Positions 3,001-25,797 of a stretch of 64,000 nt of DNA are shown piece by piece (position 1 is the stretch's first letter; each line of letters opens with the position of its first letter). The stretch covers positions 1-64,000 of the forward strand of contig JAHDHH010000012.1 in NCBI GenBank assembly GCA_020631405.1, read 5' to 3'. A program made the position numbers and the translations under genes. This DNA is from Saprospiraceae bacterium (GTDB lineage Bacteria; Bacteroidota; Bacteroidia; Chitinophagales; Saprospiraceae). Under the pieces are notes generated by a model. It searched no databases. It saw nothing but the letters and a program-made list of their open reading frames with translations, and had not been told where the DNA came from.

Positions 3001-3904
3001 CAGTAGCAGGATCAACTGGAACACCAGTATAACCACCCACTATATCCAACATAAGGTCTGGCCCAGTACAAGTTGGACATGTTACAGTAATAGTCTCTTC
3101 TACATAAAGCACTTCATCAACTAGTCCATCACCATCTAAGTCATTTCCTAAATTATTAGGATTAGCGCAATCACAAGGGTCAAATACGTCCAATGTAACT
3201 GGAGGTAATATTAAATCAAAGCAACCACTTCCATCAAGAGGTGGAAAATCACCAGCAGCAGCTAAACCAACAGATGCTCCCGTGTCATCAAACACCTCGA
3301 AAGACACCTCACTAGCCCAATCTGGACCTCCTCCTGTACCTGCTCCGCCAGCTGAACCAGGGTAACAAATAGTTAATGACCCGTCCGTAGGGTATAAGAA
3401 AGATACTGTTCCAGTACCTTCGTAAATTGGATTAACAGCACCTGTAACAGCTCCGTTGATCACAATGTCAAGACCAGTTCCGTTATTGAATCCATCACCA
3501 AATGAATCTGCAAAGGTGATAGTATAAGTAGAAGTAGTTCCAGGTATTGAAGTGTCAACAGCTGGTGGAAATCCGTAACTAGAACCAGCAGCAAAACTTG
3601 CATTAGAACCAACAGCGTTGGCATCGCAATCATACAATGTCCATGCGATCTCGCCATCCCAAGCACCAGACACAGCTTCTATTATCGTAATAACATCACC
3701 AGTATTGACAGTAATAGCTTGAGATATTGCTAAACCTCCCGTAGAACTGACAGAACTAACAACAGTGCCATTAACATCTATATCAATGACAGCACCATTC
3801 ATACCATCGCCAAAAGAATCTTCTACGACAAGCGTATAGTCACACTGGGCACTCATTGCTATGATACCGCAGAAGAAGAATAAAATCGTAAATAAATTTT
3901 TCAT
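1..3904 (-). CDS. Giant secreted CUB-like/HYR-repeat surface protein, 3' end outside window
   Basis: The reading frame is open from the start codon at 3902-3904 to the window edge, at least 1301 codons, so the C-terminus and any sorting domain are missing. It begins with a clear signal peptide (MKNLFTILFFFCGIIAMSAQ). Two modules with the DSFGDGxNG motif follow (about residues 20-110 and 120-220), a type common in secreted Bacteroidota proteins and CUB-like, and a partial third copy lies further on. The rest consists of HYR/Ig-like repeats with paired cysteines and phrases such as DDTPPVA and FCCDD. The stretch near the window edge (LEVRRP, FVKFCCDD) strongly resembles a module in the giant protein at 17771-22822. 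It starts 18 bases after a small secreted protein gene, so the two are probably co-transcribed. An adhesive or matrix role at the cell surface, exported by T9SS, is inferred. Confidence 0.85.
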   Translation of the reverse strand, partial: MKNLFTILFFFCGIIAMSAQCDYTLVVEDSFGDGMNGAVIDIDVNGTVVSSVSSTGGLAISQAITVNTGDVITIIEAVSGAWDGEIAWTLYDCDANAVGSNASFAAGSSYGFPPAVDTSIPGTTSTYTITFADSFGDGFNNGTGLDIVINGAVTGAVNPIYEGTGTVSFLYPTDGSLTICYPGSAGGAGTGGGPDWASEVSFEVFDDTGASVGLAAAGDFPPLDGSGCFDLILPPVTLDVFDPCDCANPNNLGNDLDGDGLVDEVLYVEETITVTCPTCTGPDLMLDIVGGYTGVPVDPATATPLVGLQAVTADAPGTFIFTFYHEVSVGYTADVQFNGVVVDDIANVCDPCCDLVCPDDVVEVIGSGDCGAVVFYDIGLTGDCVFTFPGVVPAGTFDGDGNATITGVTATGFTLTGDGSGAPAGVGAYSSANTIVMSGIGAGTADFTFDYDFQNTDSFGDFWDPFVVTVNGTVVTNVTANGTGSVIVPGVVDGDVVVFDQTSDGDYEGTGLSAGNTGTTIVSNMALSITGPLVPVVSPAEFVSGAEFPVGITTVTVTVPAGFLADSDCTFDVEVIAPTVPVQSLACNDHVNISVDDACSILFSSDMFLEGGPYACYDDYVVTIVPNNVESLAFDVDPDVPVNLGGFLGDHTYMVTSPEGNTCWGTFTVEDKLGPLLECRDITISCIEYAAGDVIAYPTPALTGAVANAPVFVPGVASDGSAVLTEVVSVALADGAVISDVNVALTYQDDNSNGQDNDLDDLAVTITNLTTGTSVLITPPNWGPAFCGEANLINFVLDNEAPAGNGCPDFTSGGTFSSPGFGDLTDFIGEDPTADWQIDITNSFAGEVYTNISVGIIVTYDAPAVPPSTFDNCGVTFEFSDSFSDSGCAGGNVVRQWIATDASGNTSVCTQNIVVENVGLDGLGTIILTPFAEVDLPCGTGTSPEDIAAYFDDPTTEDDESAGGSSCNPTSPSIVENNEGYEYAYPYYSQLGCDGTYHNQKIDNNVCSVFVSYSDTAIPACGGECSGNLKVIRTWTLIDWCDQTGGAPTTFIQIIKAVDDVAPEITAGAPIQLSVSPWGCVASGVLPAPEHLFDACSGPDLAYTVSGPAGVTVTSMDGSGNAPYMVIGAPKGLHPFTYTTVDCCGNTNSSVLMVNVIDDTPPVAIAKEQIVVSLTSGGSDVGGYAQVYTNSIDNGSHDGDCGPIKLEVRRPSGAPICGNVGIDGYNNNVTFNNDRHDDDFDDDTDGGAFVKFCCDDLAAGNTYTGINGDPISYQDSMVVILRVWDDGNCDGILGNDGDNYN

Positions 3905-3911
3905 AAAATCG

Positions 3912-3917
3912 TCGGTT
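3912..3917 (-). promoter_or_regulatory. AACCGA leader motif before the giant HYR gene
   Basis: On the minus strand the 18-base spacer before the start codon reads AAGAAAACCGACGATTTT. The AACCGA core lies 7 bases before the ATG. It is one of six such leaders in the surface-protein region. Confidence 0.45.
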
Positions 3918-3922
3918 TTCTT

Positions 3923-4300
3923 TTAATTTCTTAATAATTGGTTGACTTCCTCAAACAAGGCATTGACGTCAACTGACGATGGCAACTTTGAGTTTGAAGA
4001 ATAATAATTAGCCAATTTTGGACTGACAGCAGCTATCGCATCACTAACTGATCTAGTTTTTAATGCCGCAGTCAACCTTTTAGCATAATTAACTTTAATC
4101 ATACTTGTGATATACAAGTCTGCACTATCGCCTTGATAGCCTTCCACATGAGTGGGGTTTGACTGTAGTTGTGTAGCTTCTTGCTTTAAAACAAGAGCAG
4201 CATCTCCACTAGCCATGTAACTCTGAGCCATAAGACTCGAATCAAATGAGAATGCACATAGCAAACATGCGATCATCACTAGATTTTTAAAACTTTTCAT
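3923..4300 (-). CDS. Small secreted protein of unknown function
   Basis: About 125 residues. I chose the ATG at 4300 because it starts a normal signal peptide (MKSFKNLVMIACLLCAFSF, then SSLMAQS); a longer frame reaches 4399 but its N-terminus is not signal-like. The mature part is hydrophilic and looks helical, with residues such as LKQEATQLQ and LFEEVNQLLRN at the C-terminus, and contains no cysteine and no domain I recognise. It lies 18 bases upstream of the giant HYR protein gene on the same strand, which suggests a helper or partner for that protein. Its leader carries the AACCGA motif. Function is unknown. Confidence 0.7.
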   Translation of the reverse strand: MKSFKNLVMIACLLCAFSFDSSLMAQSYMASGDAALVLKQEATQLQSNPTHVEGYQGDSADLYITSMIKVNYAKRLTAALKTRSVSDAIAAVSPKLANYYSSNSKLPSSVDVNALFEEVNQLLRN

Positions 4301-4312
4301 GAGATTGAGTTT

Positions 4313-4318
4313 TCGGTT
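4313..4318 (-). promoter_or_regulatory. AACCGA leader motif before the small secreted protein gene
   Basis: The minus strand reads TTTAACCGAAAACTCAATCTC directly before the ATG at 4300, so the core ends 12 bases before the start. A near-match to a -7 box, TAAATTTT, lies just upstream (4321-4328). Confidence 0.4.
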
Positions 4319-4750
4319 AAAAAATTTAGGTTTAAAAAATTTGATTATATCGATTCTAGCCAACCAAATAGTATTATGGCAATAACCCATGCTCATCATT
4401 ATGAGTGGGTAAACACCGCTTAGAATGCACTAGAACATTCAAATGACATTTCACTTGAAGCTTCCACGAACACTTTAAACTATTTGACCTGAATACGGCG
4501 GATATCGATTAGCCCATAAACAAAATCCAATATTCAGATCAAACCAAACTTGTAAAATATTGATACAACAGACAACTGGGTGAGTAAAAACGATGCAAAA
4601 TGATTTCGTCGACAGATTGAGGCATCGTATGTAAAGTGCCTATAGAAAGGCACTTGAAATGGTTCTTTAAAAACTCAGTTGGCTATGTGTATACAATTAT
4701 ACGCTGGAACAAATACATGTTAATTCGCATCAACAGCACTTATTCAGCAA

Positions 4751-4758
4751 CAAATATA
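4751..4758 (-). promoter_or_regulatory. Candidate minus-strand -7 box TATATTTG
   Basis: It matches the Bacteroidota -7 consensus TAnnTTTG exactly. Downstream it reads TTGCTGAATAAG, very close to the sequence after the peroxidase-like gene promoter (TTCTCTGAATAAG). No clear -33 TTG was seen. It could drive the gene at 4300 through a long leader, or a small RNA. Confidence 0.35.
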
Positions 4759-4865
4759 ACTATAGAACTTTAAAATAAAATTATTTAGAGAGAAAAAATA
4801 TTTATAATAAAAACTTTTATATGTAACTATGCATCTACATCAACCATATACTTCTAAATACCTAA

Positions 4866-4873
4866 AACATTTG
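4866..4873 (+). promoter_or_regulatory. Candidate -7 box AACATTTG, almost leaderless
   Basis: This is a partial TAnnTTTG match whose TTTG ends 5 bases before the ATG at 4879. Transcription would start at or very near the start codon. The same arrangement precedes the genes at 40152 and 43482. Confidence 0.35.
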
Positions 4874-4878
4874 CAGTC

Positions 4879-7800
4879 ATGCAACACAAACTAATTATAC
4901 TCCATATTATATGTATGATTTTACTAAGTTGTGCAGAAGCACCAGAGACCAATACTACAAGACCCACGTCAAACCACTCTGCATCAGAACACCTATTCAA
5001 GATACACAATAGATCAGCTACTGGTATCTCTATAGTGAATACCATCAAAGAGTCCCCAGAGCTCAATGTTGAAAAAGATAATTCAGTGATCCAGGGTGCA
5101 GGAGTTGGCATCATCAATCTTAACAATGATGACCTCCCAGATCTAGTAGTAAACTACAATATGGTTCCTAACCAATTGTATGTCAATAAAGGAAATTTTA
5201 AGTTTGAGAATGTGACACTGCAATCAAAACTCAAAGCCACCAATGGATGGTCCACTGGCGTTACTATTGTGGATATAGATGGCGACAATGACGATGACAT
5301 CTATATTACTAATGGACTTCACTTGGATAGTAAGAGGAGAAAAAACAATCTCTATATCAATGATGGTAATGGAGTATTCAACGAGGAAGCAAGTCAACAC
5401 AATCTAGATGACGATGGCTATGGTGTGATGAGCTATTTTTTTGACTACGACAATGATGGCGACCTAGATGTACTGATATTAAACCAACCGCCTAGTCATA
5501 TGACCTTAAAGAAAGCCAGAAAATCAAACGATGCAGCTCTCTACTCTAACAAACTCCTAAGGAATGATGGAGGTGACTTCGTCGATATAACCCAACAATC
5601 TGGTATAGAGAGTTTCAACTACTCACTCAGTGCTATTACCTTCGACTATAATGAAGATGGCTTTATGGACATATTTATAGCCAATGACTACTTCGAACCA
5701 GATCAGCTATTTATCAATAACGGTAAGGGCAAATTTGTGGATATAGCTCTTAATGTCTTTCATCATACTAGTAACTTTAGTATGGGTTCTGACCTTGGTG
5801 ACATTGACAACGATGGACTCCTGGATATATTTGTTGCAGATATGGTAGCAGAAGATAACTACCGTCAAAAGACAAACATGAGCGGGATGAATCCGGAATT
5901 GTTCTGGAGCAATGTAGCAAAGGGCTTTAACCATCAATATATGTTCAATACATTGCACCTCAACAACCAGTTAGGCTCATACAGTGAGATAGCGCAGATG
6001 GCCAATGTTGCAATGACGGACTGGAGTTGGACTCCTCTATTTATTGACTTTAATTTAGACGGGTATAAGGATCTAATAGTGACTAACGGAACTTTGAGAG
6101 AAATTAGAAACAAAGACCATAATAACTATAGGAAATCCGTAGAGGATAGTCTATTTCGGACTACTGGCAATGCAAGGATTTCGTCAAAGCAATTGTACGA
6201 GATATCAACAAAAGCACCTCAACAAAAGCTAAGCAACAAACTATTCTTGAACAATGGTGATCTCACCTTTGAGAAAGTCGATGACCAATGGGGTCTCAAC
6301 CAAAAGACTATTACTCAGGCTGCTGCCTATGCCGACTTTGACAATGATGGAGATCTCGACATAGTCATGAGTAGCAACATCAAGGGTATAGACATCTTGC
6401 AGTCCCTAGCCGTAGAGAAGCAAGTAGGGAATTACCTGAATATCATACTTGAGGGTAAGGAAAAGAATACCAAAGCAATAAATGCTCAGGTGAGCATAGA
6501 ATATGCTAATGGACTTACGCAGGTACAGAATTTTTCTCCTTATCGTGGCTATATTAGCTCTAACCAAGGCATCATTCAATTTGGACTAGGTGATGTCTCT
6601 ATGGTAGATAAGGTTTTGGTCACATTTGTGGGTGGGAATACCGTAAGTATCAACAACGTAAAAGCTAATCAGACCATAACGATTCAAGAAGAAGATGGTA
6701 AGGACTTTCAACCAGATAAATCACCTGAAACCCTACTGTCCTATTATAACGGAAAAGTGAGACTAGAGCACAAAGAGAATGCTTATGACGACTACGAACA
6801 CGAGATACTAATACCGTATAAAATGTCAAGTCTTGGACCAACAATGGCTGTTGGAGATGTCAATGGAGACAAGAATGATGACATCTTTTTTGGAGGATCA
6901 GCAGGTACCAATGCTATACTTTTGTTTGGCACAAGCAATGGAACAATCATCAATAGTAACAATACCTGTTTTTCAAGTGCTTTTAATGCTGAAGACAGTT
7001 GCTCTGAATTTTTTGATTGTGATGGAGATGGGGATTTGGACTTATACGTCTGCGGCGGAAGCAATGAATTTGAAGTGGGTCATGACAATTATATTGATAG
7101 GCTCTATATCAATAATGGGGACGGCATGTTTGTACAAAGTACAAATATGCCGAAGACTAAAGAAAGCACTCATACGGTACTACCCTTTGACTATGATGAT
7201 GACGGCGACCTAGACCTCTTTGTTGGTGGTCGCCAAGTCCCGCGTCAATATGGAGCATCTGCAAATAGCTATCTCTACACCAATGATGGCTCAGGCAGCT
7301 TTATGGATTCATCTCAAGACTTAGCTCCTGATTTTACCAACTTAGGGATGGTAACAGATGCCACCTATGCAGATATTACTCAAGATGGCAAGCCAGAATT
7401 AGTAATTAGTGGAGAGTGGATGCCTTTAACTGCCTTCAGTTGGAACAATAGTCAATTAGAGAAAGTAGAACTCTCTACTCTAGAGAATACCCACGGCCTT
7501 TGGAATGCTATCGAAGTTGTGGATATTAACAATGACGGATATAATGATATCATTGGTGCAAATCTCGGGTTAAACAACAAGTACAAAGCTAGTGAGGAGA
7601 ATCCTTTCAAAATCTACGTTGACGACTTCGATGCTAATGGATCTAACGACGTCTACTTAGGCTACTATAACAATGATGGAGTGTGCTATCCTGTGAGGGG
7701 TAGACAATGCTCTTCAGAGCAAATGCCATTTGTGAAAAAGAAATTTGAAAATTATAATGAATTTGCCTTGGCTTCGATAGACGATGTTCTCAAAGGCAAG

Positions 7801-8205
7801 AAATCTGAGAAGACAATCTCGAAAAGAGCAAATACGTTTGCACATACGGTATACTTTGGAAACGAGTCTGGTGGTTTTACAGGCAAGCCTCTACCCAATA
7901 GTGCCCAAAGGTCAATTGGAAAGGATATTCTTATCACAAATCTAGATAAAGATCCAGAAAACGAAATCTACTTAATCGGCAATTATTACGACCGAGAAGT
8001 AGAGACTACACGAAGTGATGCTGGCATTGGTTGCATTATCAATGTAGCTGAGGACATGACTTACTCAATGCCAAGTCCATTAGAAATAGGTGCCTTGGCT
8101 AAGAGAGATGCTAGAGTTGTAAAAGCAATGCAATTAGGAGGAAATGATATCATTGCTGTTGCTAACAATAACTTCAAACTACAATTTTTTAAGGCAAATA
8201 ATTAA
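4879..8205 (+). CDS. FG-GAP/VCBS-repeat surface lipoprotein with ASPIC/UnbV domain (CRTAC1-like)
   Basis: 1108 residues. A lipoprotein signal ends in a lipobox (MILLSC, lipidated Cys about residue 18). The body is two runs of FG-GAP/VCBS repeats, recognised by many calcium-binding loops of the type DxDxDGxxD (IVDIDGDNDDDIYI, FDNDGDLDIVMS, DCDGDGDLDLYV). An ASPIC/UnbV-like segment sits between them (near NYLNIILEGKEKNTKAIN to FSPYRGYISSNQGIIQFGLG). Such proteins form calcium-bound beta-propellers on the outer membrane and are taken to bind glycans or proteins; no enzyme activity is implied. It is a full-length paralog of the protein at 9497-12769, sharing the segment PVRGRQCSSEQMPF. The two flank a sulfotransferase gene. 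The substrate is unknown. Confidence 0.88.
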   Translation: MQHKLIILHIICMILLSCAEAPETNTTRPTSNHSASEHLFKIHNRSATGISIVNTIKESPELNVEKDNSVIQGAGVGIINLNNDDLPDLVVNYNMVPNQLYVNKGNFKFENVTLQSKLKATNGWSTGVTIVDIDGDNDDDIYITNGLHLDSKRRKNNLYINDGNGVFNEEASQHNLDDDGYGVMSYFFDYDNDGDLDVLILNQPPSHMTLKKARKSNDAALYSNKLLRNDGGDFVDITQQSGIESFNYSLSAITFDYNEDGFMDIFIANDYFEPDQLFINNGKGKFVDIALNVFHHTSNFSMGSDLGDIDNDGLLDIFVADMVAEDNYRQKTNMSGMNPELFWSNVAKGFNHQYMFNTLHLNNQLGSYSEIAQMANVAMTDWSWTPLFIDFNLDGYKDLIVTNGTLREIRNKDHNNYRKSVEDSLFRTTGNARISSKQLYEISTKAPQQKLSNKLFLNNGDLTFEKVDDQWGLNQKTITQAAAYADFDNDGDLDIVMSSNIKGIDILQSLAVEKQVGNYLNIILEGKEKNTKAINAQVSIEYANGLTQVQNFSPYRGYISSNQGIIQFGLGDVSMVDKVLVTFVGGNTVSINNVKANQTITIQEEDGKDFQPDKSPETLLSYYNGKVRLEHKENAYDDYEHEILIPYKMSSLGPTMAVGDVNGDKNDDIFFGGSAGTNAILLFGTSNGTIINSNNTCFSSAFNAEDSCSEFFDCDGDGDLDLYVCGGSNEFEVGHDNYIDRLYINNGDGMFVQSTNMPKTKESTHTVLPFDYDDDGDLDLFVGGRQVPRQYGASANSYLYTNDGSGSFMDSSQDLAPDFTNLGMVTDATYADITQDGKPELVISGEWMPLTAFSWNNSQLEKVELSTLENTHGLWNAIEVVDINNDGYNDIIGANLGLNNKYKASEENPFKIYVDDFDANGSNDVYLGYYNNDGVCYPVRGRQCSSEQMPFVKKKFENYNEFALASIDDVLKGKKSEKTISKRANTFAHTVYFGNESGGFTGKPLPNSAQRSIGKDILITNLDKDPENEIYLIGNYYDREVETTRSDAGIGCIINVAEDMTYSMPSPLEIGALAKRDARVVKAMQLGGNDIIAVANNNFKLQFFKANN

Positions 8206-8300
8206 GGTCAACTCATAAGATATGGAAAGGCTATATAGCAGAATATCACAAGAATATAGTCCTAATTCAATGTGTTACATTGGGATGCAAACTAGAATAT

Positions 8301-9362
8301 CTACTTGCCAAATATTCTTTTTAAAATACTCTTCTTCTTGCTCTGGAATTGCAGTATAGGAACTATTTGCTTTGTTTGAATAGAGACCTCTTTTATAATA
8401 ATCTCTGTAATGCTTTTAGTAGTGTCGAGAGGAGACTCATTCGACTGATTATCATCTAACAACTTATACAGGTCTTCGCTACTCACAGAATTTAACAAAG
8501 ACCTAATCAAGATTTGGTTGAAATTCATAACATACTCTACCCCATCGCTTGTGTTATTCTTCAAGTATTGACTAATTGAGATAAGACTTTTTCTATTAAT
8601 TCTTATGAAATTGGAAGTAGGAATGTAAAGATCCAATAAGGTAAATCTTTCTGTGTACTTAAGAACATAATCATATTTATCTTTTATTATAGTATACCTA
8701 GAATTACCAACACCTAAGCCTTCAAATCTTTTCTTATAATACAGATATAATTCTAAGTCCAATGTGTTGTTTTTTTGGATTAACTCTTTGATTTCGTCGT
8801 TTACATCTTCTATTTGTGGTCTATTTAGCGTCACTCTTTTAGCTCTTATGGTTTTCTTCATCCTTACGTTCAATACTTTTCCCATGTAGGCTAAAGACTT
8901 TTCGAACTCTTCAAAAATGCAAACTTTCATATCTAAATCGTCTATTGTCTTAATCACATGATTTAAATCTGCATTACAAATTGGTTTCTCTGCGTAATAT
9001 CTGCGTCCTAATAGGAAGTTGATGGTAGCATTCTGAGTTTGCGAATTTTTGATATAAGATTCTAATGACTTGGGTTTTCTCTTGATTAAACTAAAATACT
9101 CAGGTCTATCTTTAATAAAATAGTATTCAGAAATTACTTTATCAACAGGATGCCTCAGCATCGTATATATTAAATAGTTTTTATAATGCCCGAAGTGTTT
9201 AGGGTCAAATATATCTCCGCTTTCAGAATACTTTGATTGGTGGTTCAAATGCCTATAATTCTCCCTATCCCTATTCTTTATCCATTCAGAATTACAAACA
9301 GCAGAATATAGTGTAGTCCCTCCAGTTTTTGGAATATGTATGAACAATGTGTTGTCTTTCAT
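8301..9362 (-). CDS. Sulfotransferase family 2-like protein
   Basis: 353 residues, no signal peptide, so cytoplasmic. The N-terminus FIHIPKTGGTTL is the PAPS 5'-phosphosulfate loop of carbohydrate sulfotransferases of the heparan-sulfate 2-O type, and MLRHPVDKVISEYYF matches the 3'-phosphate-binding segment. These enzymes move sulfate from PAPS to a hydroxyl group of a sugar. The C-terminal third (from about residue 230) is lysine-rich and not recognised. It lies convergent to one FG-GAP lipoprotein gene and downstream of the other, which hints at sulfation of a surface glycan. The ATG at 9362 is preceded by TAAATTTT and only six further bases, so the message may have almost no leader. The acceptor is unknown. 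Confidence 0.75.
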   Translation of the reverse strand: MKDNTLFIHIPKTGGTTLYSAVCNSEWIKNRDRENYRHLNHQSKYSESGDIFDPKHFGHYKNYLIYTMLRHPVDKVISEYYFIKDRPEYFSLIKRKPKSLESYIKNSQTQNATINFLLGRRYYAEKPICNADLNHVIKTIDDLDMKVCIFEEFEKSLAYMGKVLNVRMKKTIRAKRVTLNRPQIEDVNDEIKELIQKNNTLDLELYLYYKKRFEGLGVGNSRYTIIKDKYDYVLKYTERFTLLDLYIPTSNFIRINRKSLISISQYLKNNTSDGVEYVMNFNQILIRSLLNSVSSEDLYKLLDDNQSNESPLDTTKSITEIIIKEVSIQTKQIVPILQFQSKKKSILKRIFGK

Positions 9363-9496
9363 TAATCGAAAATTTACTTAATCAAGAATAAAAAATAGCT
9401 CCTTAATGTACAGACAGTATTTTCAATAAATCTAACTAATCTACTTTATTAAAATACCTCAATCAAAAGAATCAAATATTTATTGTCTATTGTTAG

Positions 9497-12769: not shown

Positions 12770-12788
12770 CCTCTGGTTGGATAATTTA

Positions 12789-12794
12789 TCGGTT
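12789..12794 (-). promoter_or_regulatory. AACCGA leader motif before the FG-GAP lipoprotein gene
   Basis: The minus strand reads ATAAAAACCGATAAATTATCC, then ten more bases to the ATG at 12769; the core ends 19 bases before the start. Near the ATG stands CCAGAGG, one of the few purine-rich stretches resembling a ribosome binding site in this window. Confidence 0.45.
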
Positions 12795-12819
12795 TTTATA
12801 ATTAAATCAATATAAAACT

Positions 12820-17576: not shown

Positions 17577-17594
17577 AGTGGTATTGTACTAAAT

Positions 17595-17614
17595 CACTTT
17601 AAAGTGCAAAGTTA
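17595..17614 (-). promoter_or_regulatory. Promoter -7 box TAACTTTG followed by a 12-bp palindrome
   Basis: TAACTTTG (17607-17614 on minus) fits TAnnTTTG exactly. The next 12 bases, CACTTTAAAGTG (17595-17606), are a perfect palindrome at the expected transcription start of the SprB-like gene, either an operator or a hairpin at the 5' end of the message. No clear -33 element was seen. Confidence 0.55.
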
Positions 17615-17698
17615 ATATATATAAATTTTTATTATATAATAATTATCAGTTAAGTAAGACTAACTTGCAAGACTATTATCATAAACGTTTAATGACAC

Positions 17699-17746
17699 AA
17701 AAAAGCACCTTTACTTGATTCGTTTAAAAGAAGTAAAGGCACTTTT
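17699..17746 (-). terminator. Intrinsic terminator after the giant HYR/dockerin-like gene
   Basis: On minus, AAAAGTGCCTTTACTT pairs with AAGTAAAGGTGCTTTT apart from a 2x2 mismatch, followed by TTTTTTG. It lies 25 bases after the stop at 17771 and before the promoter of the next gene. Confidence 0.7.
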
Positions 17747-17770
17747 CATGTAACTAATTATTAATGTCGT

Positions 17771-20700
17771 CTAGTCAAGTAATATCATTTTTCTAGTTTC
17801 CATGTTACCATCAAAGTGAAGTCTATAATAAACTACACCCGCAGCTGGTAGCATAGAAGCATCTATTGTTGCGGTATTTAATCCTTGCTCGAATCCTTTG
17901 TTCAAGCTATATAGGATTCTCCCATTGATATCCATCACTTCTAGTGTCGCAAATCCCGCTTTCGGAATACTGAACCCTATCGATGTAGATGTTGCAAATG
18001 GGTTAGGTACATTTTGATAAAGAGCAAATTCCGAACCAACTTTTACATTCTCGATATTTATATCAAGTATTTCGAAGTTAGTATCATATGCTTCTGCTCT
18101 AATTAAGTCTCCAAGTTGAGGAGTCATATCTGCTGTAGCCTGTATAGTAAATAACACAGATCCTTCTGATAACGCTACACCGTTGATGTTATCATAACTC
18201 AGTGCAAACGAATTATCATCTATCACAACCATGTTTTGATTGAAGTCTAACTCACCTCTTGAGATCGTCTTGATACCATCTACGTAGAGTTGGAATTGAG
18301 CTCCAGTCAATGTAACGTCAGATTTAGCTATCACTTGGTATATCCCAGCTTCTACTTCCTTTACTTCTAAGTCTAGCGATTGCTTGTCTCTGCTATCTAC
18401 TGCTTCTGTTGTATGACCATTGATCGTTACAGATCCGTTGACATCTCCTACTTTGACTCCAACCCAATTGACACTCATTTGGTCTTCTAACATATCTGCT
18501 ATTAAGATATCTTCAGCTATTGGCCAAGGATGTGTAACATCAGCATATTGCTTGTTTGCGTCAACAAATCTCCAGCTCTTGTTATTAGGGTATACATCAT
18601 GTACATGAAGTATCAACTTCCTAATATCAACCATATCTGCTGCAGTGATTGATTCACTACCATTAGCATCTGCTGCGATGATTTTGTAAGGACTATCTAG
18701 CGTCTCAAGATTCAGTATATGTCTCTGGATTAATACTAAATCCAATGTAGAGATACCATTTCTAGGATCATCGTCATAGTCTGCTGTCAAGTGATAGTCT
18801 TCTAGTGACAGTAAGTCTTCGAAAGCATAGTAACCATCTACTAGTGTACTCTGATAAGCCATAGTATTGTCAGCCATGTGCTCTAGAGCTACACTTACTT
18901 CATCAATTGCTTGACTATTCTCTGTTCCTACGGTACCAGCAATCATTACTCTTCCTGCAGAGTTACATGCTCCATTATTCGCTTGAATTGTCACAGTAGT
19001 AGTGCAGAAATCTCTATTTCCTGATTCATCTTCGATGTAGATTGTTACTGTGTTTTCACCTAAGTCATCACAAGTGAATGTCATATTAGAATCACCATTA
19101 GCAAAAGTGAAAACTAAGTCTTCCTCAGCTGTACATTCATCTGTACTGTTCAGGTCTAAGTCACTAGCCCATATCTCTACAGAAAAAGCTCCAGGTAGAA
19201 TAGCTGTAGTGATTCCACCTTTACAATATGGCACTGGTGCTGTACAGTCATTTACTGTAAAGTTAAACACATCAGTACTTGTGATATCACATGCTCCGAT
19301 TACCGTCCATGTAATTCTATAAGACCCTGCGCCTAATGTTCTTGTCACGCTTGTACCACTATCTGATGCTACTTGTACACCCGAACTAATATTAGTCAAT
19401 GTGTAAGTATATCTACTTGATCCAGTTATTGGATTATCAGTACATGCATCTTTTGCTGCAGTGCTTAATGCTATAGCCATAGAACAAGTATTGGCTGGAG
19501 TACAGAATTCAATTCCTGAACCTCCTGATTGGTAATCTTCATCTCCTTGGCTGCCGAAGCTAGCAGTAGAGCTTGTAAAGATTGGAGAATCGTTATTATC
19601 AAGTTTGATTACTTGAGTATTAGTATAGATTCCCTGTGGATTCTGATCTGTAGTACTGTATAAGCACCAGTCAATCACTGTCCATGTTCTTACTATTTTG
19701 AAACAAGCATCTTCTACATCTGAGAATACTTGGTCTGTATATGTGTATGCAAGCATACGACATCCAGGAGCATCTTCGATTGATACATTTGTTCCTTTGT
19801 ACTTAGGATAGTCATTATAACCATCTGGGTCTGCATCAGTTTCTATACAACCAGTTTCATTAAGTCTATCACTAGGCCATACGATATTACATGCTGCATC
19901 GTCTGGGTCTGTACATGCAGACAAGTCAATGACATTGGTCACCTCAATAAATTGTGTACACCCAACTAGTTGTATCTCTGCGTTATCTTGCAAGATGAAC
20001 CAGTTTCTTCTAATAGTTCCTGTCTCAAAATCTCCACATGCTACTAAAGCACTTGTATCATCCTTTGAATAAGGCTCGAATGTACCACTACATGGGCCTT
20101 CATACGTCACCACTGGAGCTTCTGTATTATAATTGTCTAGGTTTGTTAAGTTAGCATATGCTTCACAAGTCATGTCATAGTTTGTCACTGATGGGCATGT
20201 TGTTGTGTATGACTCACCAAATATTTGCGGTCTTACAATGACTGTACAAATTGAGCTATTATTATTAGAATCTGTAACTCTAAGTTCTACTTCTATATCT
20301 TGACCTCTATCATCACAACAAAACTGTACAAACTCTCCAAATTGTTGGTCGTTAGTCTCTGAAAACTCACTACAAGCATCAGCGTTTGGTCTTCTTACCT
20401 CATAAGTTAATTCATCATCACAATAATCATATGACCCATCATCAAGCGACTCTGCATATACTCTACCCCATCCATTTTCATTAATGGTCACTCCTGTGAA
20501 TTCATCACAGACTGCTACTGGAGGAGTATTATCAATGATATCAACCTCTACAGTGATTGAAGCTTCTTCTAAGCCATTGTAAGTAGGGAAGTAAGTTGAA
20601 TTCCCACACTCATCAGCCACTAGGAACTTAATCCAAACTCTGGGTCCTTCCATGTCGAAAAATTGGAATACACCATCTCCCATCGGCATAACTTTATCTG

Positions 20701-22822
20701 TATCACCACTGTAAATGAACGGAGTCGAATCGTCTGGCTCTGATCCATCAGGGTTAGCTTCCTTAAACCCAACATCCAAAATCACTTTTCCTGAACAGTC
20801 GGTTAAAAATCCTCCTAACCCTGTAGTCTTTGTTATATCACCACCTAAATCTATAACATCATATGAAGTCTCGCTAAAGAAATCTAGCTTAAAATCTGCA
20901 GAGCAACTATAGTTTGAAGGTGTAACGGAAGTTGTTATTTCGTCGTACTGTGTACTTACAACAGGGGCAACTTTATCTTTACTACTTATCGTCTGAGTAA
21001 ACTCTACAACCTCAGCATTACACCAATCATAGATGTAATACGTTCTGATTATCTTAAAGTTAGCTCCACAATCTTGTATAAAAGTATCTTCATAGCTCAC
21101 ATTGAACTTGCAAACATTGTCAATATTCATTGGAAAAATCGGAAGACCGCCTATAGTTGGAACTCCAGCTAATGTATTTTCACCAGGTAACAGTTCACTA
21201 GTAAATGTAGTGTCAGCCAAATTGACGTAATCAAGTCCGCAATCAAAAACTCCAGATATAACATCATCTTGTGATGCGTCAATAACAACATTATCTGGCA
21301 TTACTACATCTGCAAGGTCTCCTTTCTCATAAGAGATGACAAATGAACATGATGTGGTATTACCTGAACCGTCTACAGCTTCCCAAGTAATAAGTCTCTG
21401 CATAGTGTAATCACTATCATCAGGTCTACAGTCATATTCTAAAAAGTCATCACCAGTAATTGATATGGTAGTGTTATTACAGTTATCTCCATCATAGCTT
21501 GTAGCCAAAGCTGATTGAACTGACACCGAGAAGTCTACAGACTCAACAACAGCATTCACTGCTCCTGTATTAGTGATATTAACCACCCAATCACCGCTGA
21601 CAAATGCATCGTTAGCAACTGTTAGGTTAAAATCTGAAGTATTAAAACAGTTAAACAATGGTCCTGTAGTTGTACCTACTATTGATCCTGCTGGATCTGT
21701 TATAGTTATAGCTAAGTCACTAAGCGATCCTGAGCTGAGTGTCGGACAAACGCTTACTCCAGTAATCAACTCAAATCCATATGCTCCATTTACAGCTGAG
21801 ACCGAGAAGTCAGTTGCTGTAGATGGAAGGATAATTTCAGCTAAATCACTTTCAGATTCGTAAGTTGTAGTTCCTGACTCATTAAGTAGCATAGCTTGAG
21901 TTAAATCTTCTATGCATAATAATGTAAAGTCAGGTGGACATACAATCTGAGTAGGCACCTTATCCTCTATGACCACGGCCGCCCAACAGCTGTTAGCTGT
22001 TTCAATATTAACTTGTTCTCCGCTATATATTGGATTAAAAGAAAAGTTAGATATTGCTAAACTGACTACCTCATCTGTGTTATTAGATGCAACTCTAAAA
22101 CAAAATGTATTGCCTTCAACAAGATTCAAATCCACTACGCTTCCTGAATCAGTGTTCCCTGTAGTTGCTAAATCGGTTACATCACCGTTAATTGTGTATG
22201 ACGGCGTGTCATCATTAAAACTACCAGAAGGCAAACCTCCAAATTCAGTTATAGCTGACCAATCAAATGATAGTGTACCATCTTGATAGATGTCAATACA
22301 TATTTCATCATATGTTACTCCTGTACCATCACTAGAAGCAGTCAATGTTATATCACAGTCATCAGCGAACGTGATACTTCCATCTGTTGCACTAGACAAT
22401 AGTACATCCAGATTGCTAGACCACAAGAGATCATCAAAGTTCTCATCGAAACAAGTCAATGCTGAACTTTCTACATAAATCTCTACACCCACAGTCCTTC
22501 CTATGTAGTCAGAACCGACTATTGGGTGAATTAAGTCATTACCTACTGTGGTTGTACGACCAATTTCTATATCGTTTTCATCAAATAAAACAATATAATA
22601 ATCGCATAATGAAGCATCATCATGACCTTCCAATATGATATCGGGTGTAATTGTCGCTTCGCATTGGAAATCCAATGAAACCTGGACTAAATTGTTACAT
22701 GCCAAAGGACAATCTTGAGCTTTAGCAGTGTTTGTAAACATTACAACTAACAATAGTGACCAGAAAGAGGTTCTTGTTGCGATTCGCTGTAAAATTTTGT
22801 AAGTGTTGTTAACCATTCTCAT
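17771..22822 (-). CDS. Giant secreted HYR protein with dockerin-like and cohesin-like modules and type A T9SS sorting domain
   Basis: 1683 residues; a signal peptide ends near TNTAKAQ. Most of the protein is Cys-rich HYR/Ig-like repeats (DNTPPVAVCDEFTGVTINE, EVRRPNAD, FVQFCCDDRGQ), plus P-domain-like segments (residues about 330-430, ITDPAGSIVG, GDWVVNITNTG). From about residue 1293 there is a carboxypeptidase-regulatory-like fold, then dockerin-like calcium loops (DPRNGISTLDLVLIQRHIL and DANGSESITAADMVDIRKLI, about 1348-1408; a third loop GDVNGSV near 1460), then a cohesin-like beta-sandwich (about 1480-1590), and finally a type A sorting domain (PNPFATSTSIGFSI, MDINGRILYS, KMILLD). It should be exported by T9SS and held at the surface. 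It shares an HYR module with the truncated protein at the window start. Confidence 0.87.
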   Translation of the reverse strand: MRMVNNTYKILQRIATRTSFWSLLLVVMFTNTAKAQDCPLACNNLVQVSLDFQCEATITPDIILEGHDDASLCDYYIVLFDENDIEIGRTTTVGNDLIHPIVGSDYIGRTVGVEIYVESSALTCFDENFDDLLWSSNLDVLLSSATDGSITFADDCDITLTASSDGTGVTYDEICIDIYQDGTLSFDWSAITEFGGLPSGSFNDDTPSYTINGDVTDLATTGNTDSGSVVDLNLVEGNTFCFRVASNNTDEVVSLAISNFSFNPIYSGEQVNIETANSCWAAVVIEDKVPTQIVCPPDFTLLCIEDLTQAMLLNESGTTTYESESDLAEIILPSTATDFSVSAVNGAYGFELITGVSVCPTLSSGSLSDLAITITDPAGSIVGTTTGPLFNCFNTSDFNLTVANDAFVSGDWVVNITNTGAVNAVVESVDFSVSVQSALATSYDGDNCNNTTISITGDDFLEYDCRPDDSDYTMQRLITWEAVDGSGNTTSCSFVISYEKGDLADVVMPDNVVIDASQDDVISGVFDCGLDYVNLADTTFTSELLPGENTLAGVPTIGGLPIFPMNIDNVCKFNVSYEDTFIQDCGANFKIIRTYYIYDWCNAEVVEFTQTISSKDKVAPVVSTQYDEITTSVTPSNYSCSADFKLDFFSETSYDVIDLGGDITKTTGLGGFLTDCSGKVILDVGFKEANPDGSEPDDSTPFIYSGDTDKVMPMGDGVFQFFDMEGPRVWIKFLVADECGNSTYFPTYNGLEEASITVEVDIIDNTPPVAVCDEFTGVTINENGWGRVYAESLDDGSYDYCDDELTYEVRRPNADACSEFSETNDQQFGEFVQFCCDDRGQDIEVELRVTDSNNNSSICTVIVRPQIFGESYTTTCPSVTNYDMTCEAYANLTNLDNYNTEAPVVTYEGPCSGTFEPYSKDDTSALVACGDFETGTIRRNWFILQDNAEIQLVGCTQFIEVTNVIDLSACTDPDDAACNIVWPSDRLNETGCIETDADPDGYNDYPKYKGTNVSIEDAPGCRMLAYTYTDQVFSDVEDACFKIVRTWTVIDWCLYSTTDQNPQGIYTNTQVIKLDNNDSPIFTSSTASFGSQGDEDYQSGGSGIEFCTPANTCSMAIALSTAAKDACTDNPITGSSRYTYTLTNISSGVQVASDSGTSVTRTLGAGSYRITWTVIGACDITSTDVFNFTVNDCTAPVPYCKGGITTAILPGAFSVEIWASDLDLNSTDECTAEEDLVFTFANGDSNMTFTCDDLGENTVTIYIEDESGNRDFCTTTVTIQANNGACNSAGRVMIAGTVGTENSQAIDEVSVALEHMADNTMAYQSTLVDGYYAFEDLLSLEDYHLTADYDDDPRNGISTLDLVLIQRHILNLETLDSPYKIIAADANGSESITAADMVDIRKLILHVHDVYPNNKSWRFVDANKQYADVTHPWPIAEDILIADMLEDQMSVNWVGVKVGDVNGSVTINGHTTEAVDSRDKQSLDLEVKEVEAGIYQVIAKSDVTLTGAQFQLYVDGIKTISRGELDFNQNMVVIDDNSFALSYDNINGVALSEGSVLFTIQATADMTPQLGDLIRAEAYDTNFEILDINIENVKVGSEFALYQNVPNPFATSTSIGFSIPKAGFATLEVMDINGRILYSLNKGFEQGLNTATIDASMLPAAGVVYYRLHFDGNMETRKMILLD

Positions 22823-22832
22823 TTGTAAAAAT

Positions 22833-22838
22833 CGGTTT
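22833..22838 (-). promoter_or_regulatory. AACCGA leader motif before the giant HYR/dockerin-like gene
   Basis: The minus strand reads TTTTACAATACACAAACCGA, then TTTTTACAA and a few bases to the start. The upstream TTTTACAA is also found, at almost the same distance, before the motif of the response regulator gene. Confidence 0.5.
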
Positions 22839-22906
22839 GTGTATTGTAAAATCTCGTTACTTATTTCTAATAATTGTTACTCTTAATTTTGGTCAGATTA
22901 GAGTAA

Positions 22907-22923
22907 AGCATTTGGGGAATGCT
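22907..22923 (-). terminator. Weak hairpin directly after the response regulator gene
   Basis: AGCATT and AATGCT form a perfect 6-bp stem around a 5-base loop one base after the stop codon. There is only a short T run, so termination is probably partial. Confidence 0.3.
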
Positions 22924-22924
22924 A

Positions 22925-23593
22925 TTATTTAACAAGTGAATTCTCAAAAGCAAATTTGATCAAATTGACAGTATTCCTTACTCCCAATTTTCTCATGATA
23001 TTCTTTCGATGGACTCCTACTGTTTGGTCACTAATGAATAGCTCAACAGCAATTTCCTTATTATTCTTAGCTTGTGTAATAAGGCTTAAGACCTCATGCT
23101 CTCGCTTGGTGAGTTTCCTCTTTATCAAGAATCTGTCCTCAAACTTTGTCTTAGCCTTACTGTTGATTTTAAATCCACTTGGTGGTGTGATGTGTACGTC
23201 TGGGCCCAAATATGTTCTCTCATTAAATATATTATTTAGGGCAGCGAATAAATCTTCTCTTTTGTGAGACTTTAGTAAGTAACCGTCTGCTCCCCCTTTC
23301 ATAGACTCTTTGACGAATTTATGATCGTTGTAAGTGGTCAATACCAAAATCTTGATATCCTTAGAAATTTTTCTAATTCTTGGGATTAGATCTATACCGT
23401 CCATTCCTGACAAGTTTAGATCCATAATCAGTAAGTCTATCTCCATAGTACTAATAATAGAGATGACCTGGTCAGATGAATCCACATGTGAGAGCATGTT
23501 CAATTCATAAGCCGGATAGTTCGAAAGAATCGTTTTGATTCCTTCACAAAACAGATTTTGCTTATCTGCTATTAGTGTATTTACTGTAAGCAT
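22925..23593 (-). CDS. LuxR/NarL-type response regulator, orphan
   Basis: 222 residues. The N-terminal receiver has the phospho-acceptor Asp in LLIMDLNLSGMDG (residue about 57), the Thr/Lys switch in ILVLTTYND and the conserved Lys in GYLLKSHKRED. The C-terminal LuxR helix-turn-helix reads LTKREHEVLSLI, NKEIAVELFISDQTVGVHRKN. Such proteins bind DNA as dimers after phosphorylation. No histidine kinase is encoded nearby, so the partner is elsewhere. It lies between the peroxidase-like gene and the giant HYR gene on the same strand and carries the same AACCGA leader motif as both, so it may control, or be controlled with, this surface-protein set. Confidence 0.9.
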   Translation of the reverse strand: MLTVNTLIADKQNLFCEGIKTILSNYPAYELNMLSHVDSSDQVISIISTMEIDLLIMDLNLSGMDGIDLIPRIRKISKDIKILVLTTYNDHKFVKESMKGGADGYLLKSHKREDLFAALNNIFNERTYLGPDVHITPPSGFKINSKAKTKFEDRFLIKRKLTKREHEVLSLITQAKNNKEIAVELFISDQTVGVHRKNIMRKLGVRNTVNLIKFAFENSLVK

Positions 23594-23602
23594 TTAGTTT
23601 GG

Positions 23603-23608
23603 TCGGTT
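23603..23608 (-). promoter_or_regulatory. AACCGA leader motif before the response regulator gene
   Basis: The minus strand reads TTTTACAACTTTAACCGACC, then AAACTAA and the ATG at 23593. It shares both TTTTACAA and AACCGA with the leader of the next gene at 22822. Confidence 0.5.
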
Positions 23609-23701
23609 AAAGTTGTAAAATTCGCAATCTACTTCGTGTAAAGTCGTGTGTCACTAGGTAAAGAGCAAATGATATGCCAAACTCAGCCGTCCATTTTGTT
23701 A

Positions 23702-23736
23702 TGATAACACATATTTTTGAGCATCATATGTTATCA
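23702..23736. promoter_or_regulatory. Inverted repeat TGATAACA/TGTTATCA upstream of the response regulator
   Basis: Two perfect 8-base arms are separated by 19 bases, in the 236-base gap between the peroxidase-like gene and the regulator gene. There is no T tract, so an operator or an mRNA hairpin is more likely than a terminator. Confidence 0.35.
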
Positions 23737-23829
23737 GGCCTAACTAATTGCAAATCAATGAATTAGACCCATTTTAGGTGCAAATAAATAAATAAGAAAT
23801 TAATTGATAATAAGAAGCCTATTTAGGGG

Positions 23830-25743
23830 CTATTCTACTACAAATGGGACTACATTTGAGTATTGCTTAGACTTTATTAGAAGTGAGTAATAGCCTCTTT
23901 GAATGCCATAATTTTGCAAGTATAGGTTCACATAATTATTGCCTGAACGAAGTTCTGATGTCTCAGAATACAGCTCTCTTCCAAATAAATCAACAACCAC
24001 TAACTCAACCTCTCCTTCATAGTCAGAGTAGATAAGAGTTTTGATATTACCATCAAGAGATGGGTTTGGATAAACCTTTGTATTAAGGTGTATTTTAGTT
24101 AAATCTGGTGGCTGAACAGTGGACTCAGCTAAGAATACATTTTGTTGTATCAATGTTATTGATGTATTTCTTAGGATGATATCTCTAAGTGTTGTTTGTT
24201 TGATTTGATAGATATCAAAAGCATTGAATACATCTGTATCATTCTCATAATAAAATCTATCTCCATCTCTCAGCCTTCTAAACTGCTTTTCTAGGATGTT
24301 GATGATGAGTTCACCCATCGTTGCATTAGATGTCTTCTTCTCGGCCAACAATCCTACCCAAAGATCAATATTCTCAATGGAACCGTATAACGTTTCTAGA
24401 GTTTCGGCTACCTCAGCATCTCCAGTAAGAGTATTGTAATTAGTAAAGCCTGGAAGTCCAATATTTCTCCTTACAGAGTTGTATCCCATCAACCCTCTAT
24501 CTCTACCATTGAATATGACTTGAGCAATCAAATCTTTCGAAGACTGTGTCTCGCTAAAATCAAAATTTCTAAGATTCGTTGAAGCCTTGGTATCAAAGCT
24601 TTGTTGTACTTGAGTAGCTAGACCCTTAATATAAGGCTCTATTCCTATTGTTGCGCTTGAGTTCTTCGGATCATAATAAAACTCCTCTCCAACCGCAAGG
24701 TTACCACTACTGATTACATCTCCAGTATTATCAAGTCTAAGAATATCTTGACCCATTAGGGTGTTTTCAAATACAATTCCAGCAGCAGAAAATTCATTTG
24801 ATATAGTGACATCCATGTCAGGGTCATAGCTAGAATACTCCTCTAACAAAATTCCAAGGGATGGTAACCAATCATCGAAAGTTATCTTTTGGATATAGGC
24901 ACCAACCATCTTTCTTGCTCGCTGATAAATTCTTTCATCATCCCAGTTTGGATATCTCAATGCAAACTCATCGCAAAGTCTATTATGCTCTCTAACGAAC
25001 AATGTATGCAATGAAATCAATAATGGATTCTTATTTGATCTTTCGTCTCCTGCAACATAGTATTTAGTACTGATGTCATCAATGTGCTTCATTTCTGGAG
25101 CTTCAGCATCAATCTGAGAGTTATAATCTCCACCTACTGTATTCCAAGGAAGAAAGTTGCCTCCCGGGGCAGTTTTTAGTTTTCCATTCTCAAATGTCCT
25201 CAACCATGCAGCTCTTTCCTCATCTGACCCATAGACACCTGACCCATCTAACCATGTTGACACATGATTCAAAAATTCTCTTGGGTTGTCTATATCAGTT
25301 CCAGTTGATTCATCATATTTATTTCTAAAGAACTGCATTTCTGTTTCGTCCACAAAGAAATCATCCCCTGCAGGCACAGAAACCATCATAAATTCTTCTG
25401 GGTTATAATGTAAGTAATCTACATCATGACAAACAAACTGTCCGAAAGCCCATACAAAGTCGCTTAAGTTAGATTGATCGTAGAGTTCTGTAGTTTGATT
25501 GAATAAGGTGTTACTGATATCTCTGACATTTGGCAACTCATTATTTACTTGCCCTATCCCGTCAGCATAGTTTATTTCGTTTGTAAGTCTTCCGTACTGA
25601 GTATAAGAAGAACCCATTTGTAAGGCACTAAGATTATTTCTTGAGCCGTCGAACGTCCTGTTTTCTTGTGCAGACAACCAAACCGCCTGAGAGACGATAA
25701 ATAGTGCCATGCACAGCTTCATCATATTTCTATACCACTGCAT
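23830..25743 (-). CDS. Secreted animal-type heme peroxidase-like protein with altered heme pocket and T9SS tail
   Basis: 637 residues; the signal peptide ends near WLSAQ (a start at 25722 or 25725 is also possible). The animal heme peroxidase fold is clear: distal pair H106-D107 (FVCHDVDY), calcium/fold motif LDGSGVYGSDEERAAWLR, catalytic Arg235, and SLHTLFVREHNRLCDE with ARKMVGAYIQKITFDDWLP. The proximal heme histidine, normally in an RFGH or RYGH context, is replaced: SAAGIVFENTLMG has Asn327. The Asn that normally supports that His is Val409 (VIFNGRDRGL), and the Glu that usually follows the catalytic Arg is Lys238. The C-terminus (about 560-637) is a type A sorting domain (VYPNPSLDGNIKTLI, DLFGRELYS). 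So it is surface-bound or secreted, but normal peroxidase activity is doubtful. Confidence 0.87.
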   Translation of the reverse strand: MQWYRNMMKLCMALFIVSQAVWLSAQENRTFDGSRNNLSALQMGSSYTQYGRLTNEINYADGIGQVNNELPNVRDISNTLFNQTTELYDQSNLSDFVWAFGQFVCHDVDYLHYNPEEFMMVSVPAGDDFFVDETEMQFFRNKYDESTGTDIDNPREFLNHVSTWLDGSGVYGSDEERAAWLRTFENGKLKTAPGGNFLPWNTVGGDYNSQIDAEAPEMKHIDDISTKYYVAGDERSNKNPLLISLHTLFVREHNRLCDEFALRYPNWDDERIYQRARKMVGAYIQKITFDDWLPSLGILLEEYSSYDPDMDVTISNEFSAAGIVFENTLMGQDILRLDNTGDVISSGNLAVGEEFYYDPKNSSATIGIEPYIKGLATQVQQSFDTKASTNLRNFDFSETQSSKDLIAQVIFNGRDRGLMGYNSVRRNIGLPGFTNYNTLTGDAEVAETLETLYGSIENIDLWVGLLAEKKTSNATMGELIINILEKQFRRLRDGDRFYYENDTDVFNAFDIYQIKQTTLRDIILRNTSITLIQQNVFLAESTVQPPDLTKIHLNTKVYPNPSLDGNIKTLIYSDYEGEVELVVVDLFGRELYSETSELRSGNNYVNLYLQNYGIQRGYYSLLIKSKQYSNVVPFVVE

Positions 25744-25777
25744 CGGTTCAGATGTTAGTTTATACCCACGAGATTAG

Positions 25778-25783
25778 TCGGTT
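25778..25783 (-). promoter_or_regulatory. AACCGA leader motif in the peroxidase-like gene
   Basis: The minus strand reads GAATAAGAAACCGACTAATC about 10 bases after the expected transcription start. A second copy (25743-25748) overlaps the start codon as GAACCGATG. Confidence 0.45.
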
Positions 25784-25797
25784 TCTTATTCAGAGAA

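Follow-up and report, generated by a model that had tools for sequence, protein, structure and literature searches.

AACCGA sites in the surface-region leaders

The window, by which we mean the entire 64,000-nucleotide stretch of Saprospiraceae DNA analysed here, harbors a surface region in which the hexamer AACCGA recurs shortly before start codons. The following genes and features bear on the analysis, the small RNAs sRNA1 and sRNA2 being described further below:

3912..3917, minus strand: AACCGA copy within the 18 nt that separate HYR1 (gene 2-3904) from the gene before it
3923..4300, minus strand: small secreted protein gene without a Pfam match, predicted sRNA2 target
4294..4380, minus strand: 87-nt leader of the small protein gene
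4298..4330, minus strand: part of the small-protein leader, start codon included, that is predicted to pair with sRNA2 (from the sRNA2 pairing computation)
12789..12794, minus strand: AACCGA 19 nt before the start of an FG-GAP lipoprotein gene
17771..22822, minus strand: gene for the giant HYR/T9SS surface protein HYR2, predicted sRNA1 target
22823..22859, minus strand: stretch of the HYR2 leader (-37 to -1) predicted to pair with sRNA1, containing AACCGA 22832-22837
22925..23593, minus strand: NarL/LuxR-type response regulator gene (Pfam: Response_reg and GerE), primary predicted sRNA1 target
23584..23626, minus strand: stretch of the regulator mRNA (-33 to +10) predicted to pair with sRNA1, containing AACCGA 23603-23608 and CGAATTTTACA
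23665..23679, minus strand: regulator-gene promoter of the sigma-54 type, TGGCATATCATTTGC, conserved in G000-G003, G020, G022, G005 and other genomes
23702..23736, minus strand: TGATAACATATG...ATATGTGTTATCA, an inverted repeat located upstream of that promoter and conserved in part among sister species
25743..25783, minus strand: two AACCGA copies in the leader of a peroxidase gene

On the minus strand, AACCGA is located at 3912-3917, 4313-4318, 12789-12794, 22832-22837, 23603-23608, 25743-25748 and 25778-25783. The hexamer is present at every site listed in the sequence-only reading of this DNA, although the site placed there at 22833-22838 should read 22832-22837. It is not enriched in the window as a whole (14 copies; expected: 10.75), and no genome-wide enrichment before starts was found that would mark it as a general Bacteroidota leader motif. 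In six of the twelve surface-region genes, however, it falls within the 40 nt preceding the start, as against 0/269 comparison leaders sampled from ~340 kb of this genome, the starts of which were taken from a simple ORF caller. No other hexamer in the twelve leaders comes close to AACCGA (p: ~2e-12), and in none of 3000 random twelve-gene sets did any hexamer attain as little as 5e-6. The proposals that the motif clusters before surface-region starts beyond chance, and that it is missing before housekeeping starts, are thus borne out. The complement TCGGTT occurs in 0/12 of these leaders, AACCGA being found in the sense direction only and always within ~20 nt of the AUG, and identical copies are located inside 30-45 nt operon gaps of the relatives G164 and G095. 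The motif furthermore co-occurs with sigma-54 promoters (Fisher p: 2.7e-4). An additional motif noted earlier as common to the HYR2 and regulator leaders was recovered as TTTTACAA-N2..10-AACCGA, which is found at these two sites only in the genome. The leaders are unstructured, with no RNA structure detected in them (z: -0.14), and an Rfam search of the window gave no match.

Enrichment in T9SS cargo had been put forward as a check, but AACCGA does not mark such cargo in general, being missing from the majority of the other HYR giants in this genome. An association with all T9SS cargo or with every HYR giant was rejected, the element being present in 3/~12 additional giants or genes partnered with them.

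Two predicted tandem small RNA genes of the Saprospiraceae

Two intergenic sRNA genes complementary to several of these leaders were detected computationally. The first, sRNA1, is ~65 nt in length and consists of GUGUAAGUUUUGGUUAUUAAAUUGUAAAAUUCGUUUU followed by a terminator, while sRNA2 consists of AUAUGAGUUUUGGUUAUUAAAUUGAGUAAU followed by a terminator. They display the features of trans-encoded base-pairing sRNAs, namely their own promoter, a Rho-independent terminator and a conserved seed complementary to translation initiation regions. Across 17 sRNA1 sequences the seed is invariant and the terminator stem covaries. A promoter precedes 68/70 distinct sRNA1 loci (TAnnTTTG-type: 51; sigma-54: 17) and a T-run is present at 67/70. 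At E<=0.1 the sRNA1 covariance model has matches in 93 of the 298 relatives, the three sister species all being among them (E: 1e-8 to 5e-14), while some genomes with the leader motif, such as G068, G095 and G043, gave no match under strict filters and in incomplete assemblies. The sRNA1 seed pattern, sought across 84,980 GTDB genomes, was found on 59 contigs, the titles of which name Saprospiraceae, Chitinophagales, Saprospirales, unclassified Bacteroidetes and the genera Portibacter and Aureispira. Portibacter marinus, Portibacter lacus and Aureispira CCB-QB1 are cultured relatives with the loci. Neither sRNA has a match in Rfam.

All 38 sRNA2 loci have a sigma-54 promoter and stand in tandem with sRNA1, with 118-284 bp between this promoter and sRNA1, and the sRNA2 terminator also covaries. 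The pair is located after a giant gene in each of the three sister species. An sRNA2 model built without the window's genome matches that genome at positions 1-48 of contig C54 (52.4 bits; E: 2e-9), where the match is cut by the contig end. C54 thus begins inside sRNA2, and the ortholog of the giant gene that precedes the sRNAs ends 94 nt from the C54 start. A covariance-model search did not find sRNA1 in the assembly of this genome, from which it was presumably lost in the gap at the C54 end. Pairing with sRNA1 in the window's genome was accordingly computed with the sRNA1 of sister species G002.

Recurrent members of a family-wide box B plus box A pattern, which shows a weak overall excess, are the antisense of sRNA1. 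A search of six genomes for long antisense matches to the small-protein leader (20 nt; <=3 mismatches) returned mainly the leaders themselves and scattered three-mismatch matches; it missed the sRNAs because their complementarity spans 11-19 nt or is interrupted. A 16S rRNA, sought for pairing with the leaders, was not found in the assembly.

Predicted pairing with the target leaders

The regulator leader pairs with sRNA1 at -28.7 kcal/mol, a value attained by 0/300 shuffled sRNAs, and ranks first among 376 leaders of this genome. The regulator targets of G001, G002, G022 and G157 give a mean pairing z of -4.7, while those of G147, G098, G005 and G019 show little pairing. In G002 the hexamer is lost from the regulator leader and the pairing is kept. 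In G003, sRNA1 and the regulator leader have changed jointly with pairing maintained: this leader scores -22.8 with its cognate sRNA1 versus -15.4 with the sRNA of the other species, the reverse holding for the other three, although the random-variant control for this co-variation is modest (67/3000). In the regulator gene, ~50 nt separate the sigma-54 element from the AACCGA downstream of it, and the inverted repeat above that promoter is a candidate activator site.

The HYR2 leader ranks third of 376 for sRNA1 (-22.9 kcal/mol with the G002 sRNA1; 4/300 shuffles as good). Its AACCGA is kept 8-10 nt before the ATG in seven genomes of four genera. Pairing is weak outside the genus (z: -0.2 to -1.1 in G147, G157 and G022), and the HYR2 leader of G003 has not co-evolved with the sRNA1 of that species.

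For sRNA2, the small-protein leader ranks fourth of 376 (-20.3 kcal/mol; 1/200 shuffles), with another small-protein gene of this genome ranking first. Within the pairing site, AACCGA 4313-4318 contributes AACC, a bulged G and AAAACTCA. Small-protein and HYR1 leaders pair with sRNA2 in all 16 genomes tested (z: -3 to -8), and the 87-nt leader retains 89-97% identity in three sister species where the coding sequence diverges. By pairing computation, sRNA1 and sRNA2 have reciprocal target specificity. The three remaining sites lack pairing support and are poorly or partially conserved: in this genome AACCGA precedes HYR1 (3904), where sister species G001 and G003 have AACCAA, the FG-GAP site is not conserved in G002, and only the upstream peroxidase copy is kept, in G002 alone.

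Conservation of the hexamer in orthologs, by which the sequence-only reading proposed to judge the motif, holds at HYR2, but not at the LuxR-type gene of G002, and is variable elsewhere. The hexamer is not itself the unit of selection, since the G002 regulator leader has AATTGA and yet a stronger predicted pairing.

Interpretation and comparison with known systems

The earlier preference for an RNA-level signal over a DNA operator was right in kind, given that the motif is sense-only, close to the AUG and copied in the operon gaps of relatives, that in the regulator it lies downstream of a conserved sigma-54 promoter, and that there is complementarity to two sRNAs. The protein translational regulator then envisaged is less convincing, and the trans factor is likely a pair of sRNAs. 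We consider it very probable that those AACCGA copies that are best conserved belong to antisense target sites of two tandem, trans-encoded Saprospiraceae sRNAs. The sRNA1 transcript would pair with the regulator mRNA from the ribosome-binding region through the start codon, and also with the HYR2 leader, and the sigma-54-transcribed sRNA2 with the small-protein leader and start codon and, in relatives, with HYR1 mRNAs. A common sRNA core, UUGGUU, would account for AACCRA in the target mRNAs, since U can pair with either A or G. A duplex over the start region would be expected to prevent 30S binding, and translational repression of the surface proteins and the regulator is therefore the most likely effect of the sRNAs, whose expression, binding and direction of effect are here inferred from sequence.

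A protein translational regulator binding AACCRA, for instance an RRM protein like RbpB, with the intergenic RNAs serving another role, would suit the unstructured leaders, the sense-only orientation and the single RRM_1 protein encoded in the genome. We regard it as unlikely, as a single-stranded protein site predicts neither long complementarity to two sRNA genes with different target sets, nor the G003 co-variation, nor the persistence of pairing in G002 where the hexamer is gone, and such an RRM protein could instead assist the sRNAs. Local autoregulation, with AACCGA as a DNA operator for the neighboring LuxR-type regulator, draws on the position of that gene within the cluster, its own motif and the co-occurrence with sigma-54 promoters. 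It is very unlikely in view of the fixed orientation and proximity to the AUG, the copies in operon gaps, the position downstream of the sigma-54 element and the lack of a fixed half-site arrangement.

Initiation in Flavobacterium johnsoniae benefits from adenines at positions -14 to -11 (PMC6847099), and the element might accordingly be no regulatory site but a strong A-rich/S1-type ribosome-binding context of non-Shine-Dalgarno Bacteroidota. This appears scarcely credible for an element that is limited to a few surface genes and the regulator, is absent from ordinary leaders and matches sRNA seeds over 20-40 nt. Chance, with the hexamer picked after looking, gains something from the three unsupported sites among six, but has a negligible probability against 0/3000 random gene sets and conservation across genera, and is already refuted for the LuxR-type, HYR2 and small-protein sites.

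Beyond antisense targeting by the two sRNAs, a Saprospiraceae-specific switch that divides the giant-adhesin programme, perhaps with an RRM partner and in a host without Shine-Dalgarno pairing, is conceivable, at somewhat below even chances in our estimation. The sRNAs would share an ancestor; a mostly constitutive sRNA1 would silence the sigma-54-transcribed regulator and HYR2, and a sigma-54-controlled sRNA2 the small protein/HYR1 operon, such that sigma-54 activity would decide which surface coat is translated. Saprospiraceae are common, mostly uncultured bacteria of wastewater and marine habitats, and to our knowledge few regulators of giant T9SS surface proteins have been described. The sRNA pair offers a directly testable post-transcriptional control point for these proteins, while target-sRNA co-variation may provide a route from leader motifs alone to further Bacteroidota sRNAs. 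A limited literature search turned up no sRNAs of Saprospiraceae.

The closest parallel, in the same phylum, is the FopS/GibS and RbpB system of Bacteroides thetaiotaomicron, in which multicopy intergenic sRNAs, built of a 5' seed that is single-stranded and a terminator hairpin, pair at the start codon of SusC surface-protein mRNAs and block initiation (PMC11697453). The present sRNAs are likewise intergenic and multicopy, with a single-stranded 5' seed, a terminator hairpin and predicted start-codon pairing, and an RRM protein is also encoded in the window's genome. The seeds differ, however, the sRNAs form a tandem pair with one member under sigma-54, and pairing is predicted with the mRNAs of giant T9SS/HYR proteins, of a small secreted protein and of a response regulator. 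None of the Bacteroides sRNA families in Rfam (FopS/GibS, BTnc201, rteR) exceeded its gathering cut-off (best: rteR, 16.1 bits versus 72; BTnc201, 14.8 versus 105). The Qrr sRNAs of Vibrio (e.g. PMC8043402) occur in several copies under sigma-54 promoters and pair with the start region of the master regulator LuxR, which is TetR-type. Several copies, predicted start-region pairing with a regulator called LuxR and sigma-54 promoters (sRNA2: 38/38; sRNA1: 17/70) recur here as a resemblance only, as there is no sequence relation or match to the Rfam Qrr model, the target is a NarL/GerE response regulator and the sRNA1 promoter is vegetative-type in most genomes. With the leader motifs of the CsrA/Rsm type, AACCGA shares the character of a short repeated RNA motif by the start codons of a regulon, but it is not ANGGA, does not lie in hairpin loops and has a complementary RNA as its probable partner.

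Placement and conservation of AACCGA

The hexamer AACCGA precedes the starts of six surface-region genes on the minus strand of the window, among them:

start at 3904: giant HYR gene HYR1
3923-4300, minus strand: small secreted protein gene
start at 22822: HYR2, encoding a giant HYR/T9SS surface protein
22925-23593, minus strand: NarL/LuxR-type response regulator gene

All AACCGA sites reported in the sequence-only reading are present, one coordinate having slipped by a single base (true position 22832-22837). Over the whole window AACCGA occurs 14 times versus 10.75 expected, which is no excess, while it is found ≤40 nt before the start in 6/12 surface-region leaders. None of 269 leaders on other contigs of the same genome carries it, and no hexamer of comparable strength was found in any random 12-leader set. 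The notable feature of AACCGA is its position, rather than its overall count.

At HYR2, AACCGA is retained across seven genomes from four genera, 8-10 nt ahead of the ATG. In the regulator leader it is retained in the sister species G001 and G003, but not in G002, the closest species, which has AATTGA. The FG-GAP lipoprotein site is missing from G002, which is the only species to retain AACCGA at the peroxidase site. At the small secreted protein gene (4300) sister species carry AACCCA or AACTAA at the hexamer position, the rest of the 87-nt leader being 89-97% identical among them, and at HYR1 they have AACCAA or no counterpart. The AACCGA hexamer alone is therefore not the conserved unit.

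The window's peroxidase leader also contains AACCGACTAATCTC followed by GTG GGT ATA AAC TAA (25755-25784, minus strand), a four-codon reading frame with the counterpart GTG GGT ATT AAC TAA in G002, which may represent either a leader peptide or the relic of an older gene start.

A family-wide leader element and two predicted small RNA genes

The element AACCRA-N-ATCTCATGA was found in 59/150 family genomes, its matches across the 150 being ~5x more numerous than those of a reversed control. Matches at real starts are located almost exclusively in the leaders of HYR giants or the adjoining small secreted protein. In G164 and G095, AACCAAAACTCAATCT(C/T)ATG is identical at the small-protein gene and at the giant after it, the latter copy falling in an operon gap of 30-45 nt. 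Another box, GAATTTTACA, is enriched alongside the first, being present in 8/47 genes that have the first box versus 5/641 (Fisher p 2.6e-7), and lies within the first codons in relatives of other genera. Together, these observations indicate an RNA-level signal, as favoured in the sequence-only reading. In HYR2 of other genera (starts L163, L096, L090 and L202), GAATTTTACA occupies codons 4-7, encoding NFT, whereas in the window's genus it is in the untranslated leader. The small secreted proteins form a fast-evolving family of 115-150 aa, often encoded directly ahead of a giant HYR gene (window 3923-4300, L163, L165, L172, L173, L188 and others); the window's copy has no Pfam match.

Searching for stretches that contain both boxes recovered leaders and a recurrent intergenic sequence, the opposite strand of which constitutes a complete predicted small RNA gene, sRNA1, comprising a promoter, GUGUAAGUUUUGGUUA-linker-AAUUGUAAAAUUCGUUUU, a GC-rich hairpin showing covariation and a T-run. 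Its promoters are TAnnTTTG-type in 51/70 loci and sigma-54 in 17/70, with both types in none. At E≤0.1 the covariance model matches 93/298 relatives, the three sister species among them; a few of the weakest of these matches are leader antisense (e.g. G059, G159). No match was found at Rfam cut-offs. The seed is present on 59 contigs from 84,980 GTDB genomes, titled Saprospiraceae, Chitinophagales, Saprospirales or unclassified Bacteroidetes, along with Portibacter and Aureispira. Three to four tandem sRNA1 copies, mostly with a sigma-54 promoter, occur within ~600 bp at L355 (G119:C24) and L356 (G019:C26). A menaquinone biosynthesis gene (PF02621) adjoins sRNA1 in 34/92 locus records, some being duplicates (e.g. 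L345-L348, L351), showing conserved synteny. Half-sites ACATATTAC..TAATATGT are located upstream of 22/51 vegetative-type and 0/17 sigma-54-type sRNA1 promoters.

The predicted sRNA2 gene comprises a sigma-54 promoter, observed at each of the 38 loci found, AUAUGAGUUUUGGUUAUUAAAUUGAGUAAU and a covarying terminator. In the sister species, 206-231 bp separate it from sRNA1 wherever matches to the two genes were obtained, and the pair lies downstream of a giant gene, at a distance of ~300 nt; the ortholog of this giant gene in the window's genome is at the end of contig C54. This contig starts within sRNA2 (52.4 bits; E=2e-9; 5′ end cut), and a covariance-model search of the assembly did not find sRNA1. 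As the giant-gene ortholog and the cut sRNA2 stand at the C54 end, sRNA1 presumably lies within an assembly gap.

Predicted targets of the small RNAs

Pairing of sRNA1 in the window's genome was predicted with the G002 sRNA1 against 376 leaders. The regulator ranked first (-28.7 kcal/mol; positions -33 to +10; 0/300 shuffled sRNAs as good) and HYR2 third (-22.9; 4/300 shuffles). The regulator is also a strong predicted target in G001, G002, G022 and G157 (mean z -4.7), and is not one in G147, G098, G005 and G019. Pairing of sRNA2 with the small-protein and HYR1 leaders is predicted in the 16 genomes examined, with z of -3 to -8; in the window's genome it ranks another small-protein gene, on contig C69, first and the window's own copy fourth. 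Each small RNA pairs poorly with the targets of the other. Both A and G of AACCRA can pair with the sRNA U, and at 4313 the G forms a bulge (AACC-G-AAAACTCA). The AACCGA copies before HYR1 (3904), the FG-GAP lipoprotein and the peroxidase gave no pairing above shuffled controls with either small RNA. Outside the sRNA2 site, the upstream half of the small-protein leader (GCCATAATACTATTTGGTTGGCTARAATCGAT; 4348-4380, minus strand) is near-invariant in four sister species, and is possibly a promoter or second regulatory site.

In G003 the regulator leader has CGAAUUUUUAG in place of CGAAUUUUACA, and sRNA1 has CUAAAAAUUCG in place of UGUAAAAUUCG. This leader scores -22.8 with its cognate sRNA1 versus -15.4 with other species' sRNA, and the other three regulator leaders favour their own sRNA1 type (-28.7 vs -17.6, -24.1 vs -21.1 and -31.3 vs -19.7). 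Despite the loss of AACCGA in G002, no pairing is stronger than that of its regulator leader (-31.3). No comparable co-evolution with sRNA1 is seen in the HYR2 leader of G003, and the regulator thus seems to be the chief sRNA1 target.

Proposed mechanism and comparison with known systems

A conserved sigma-54 promoter precedes the regulator gene, as it does sRNA2, and from this shared feature we speculate that sigma-54 may set the balance. An inverted repeat ahead of the regulator promoter (23702-23736, minus strand) is a candidate enhancer-binding-protein site; similar half-sites are found upstream of many sRNA1 promoters. The only RRM_1 protein found in the genome, L235 (G000:C69:25233-25442), is possibly comparable to the RNA-binding protein RbpB.

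The predicted duplexes extend over either the start codon or the preceding 30 nt. Initiation in Bacteroidota relies on the start-proximal region without Shine-Dalgarno pairing (PMC6847099), and the FopS sRNAs of Bacteroides pair in the start region, blocking susC translation (PMC11697453). Given this precedent and the coverage of the initiation region by the duplexes, pairing of the small RNAs would likewise repress translation of their targets.
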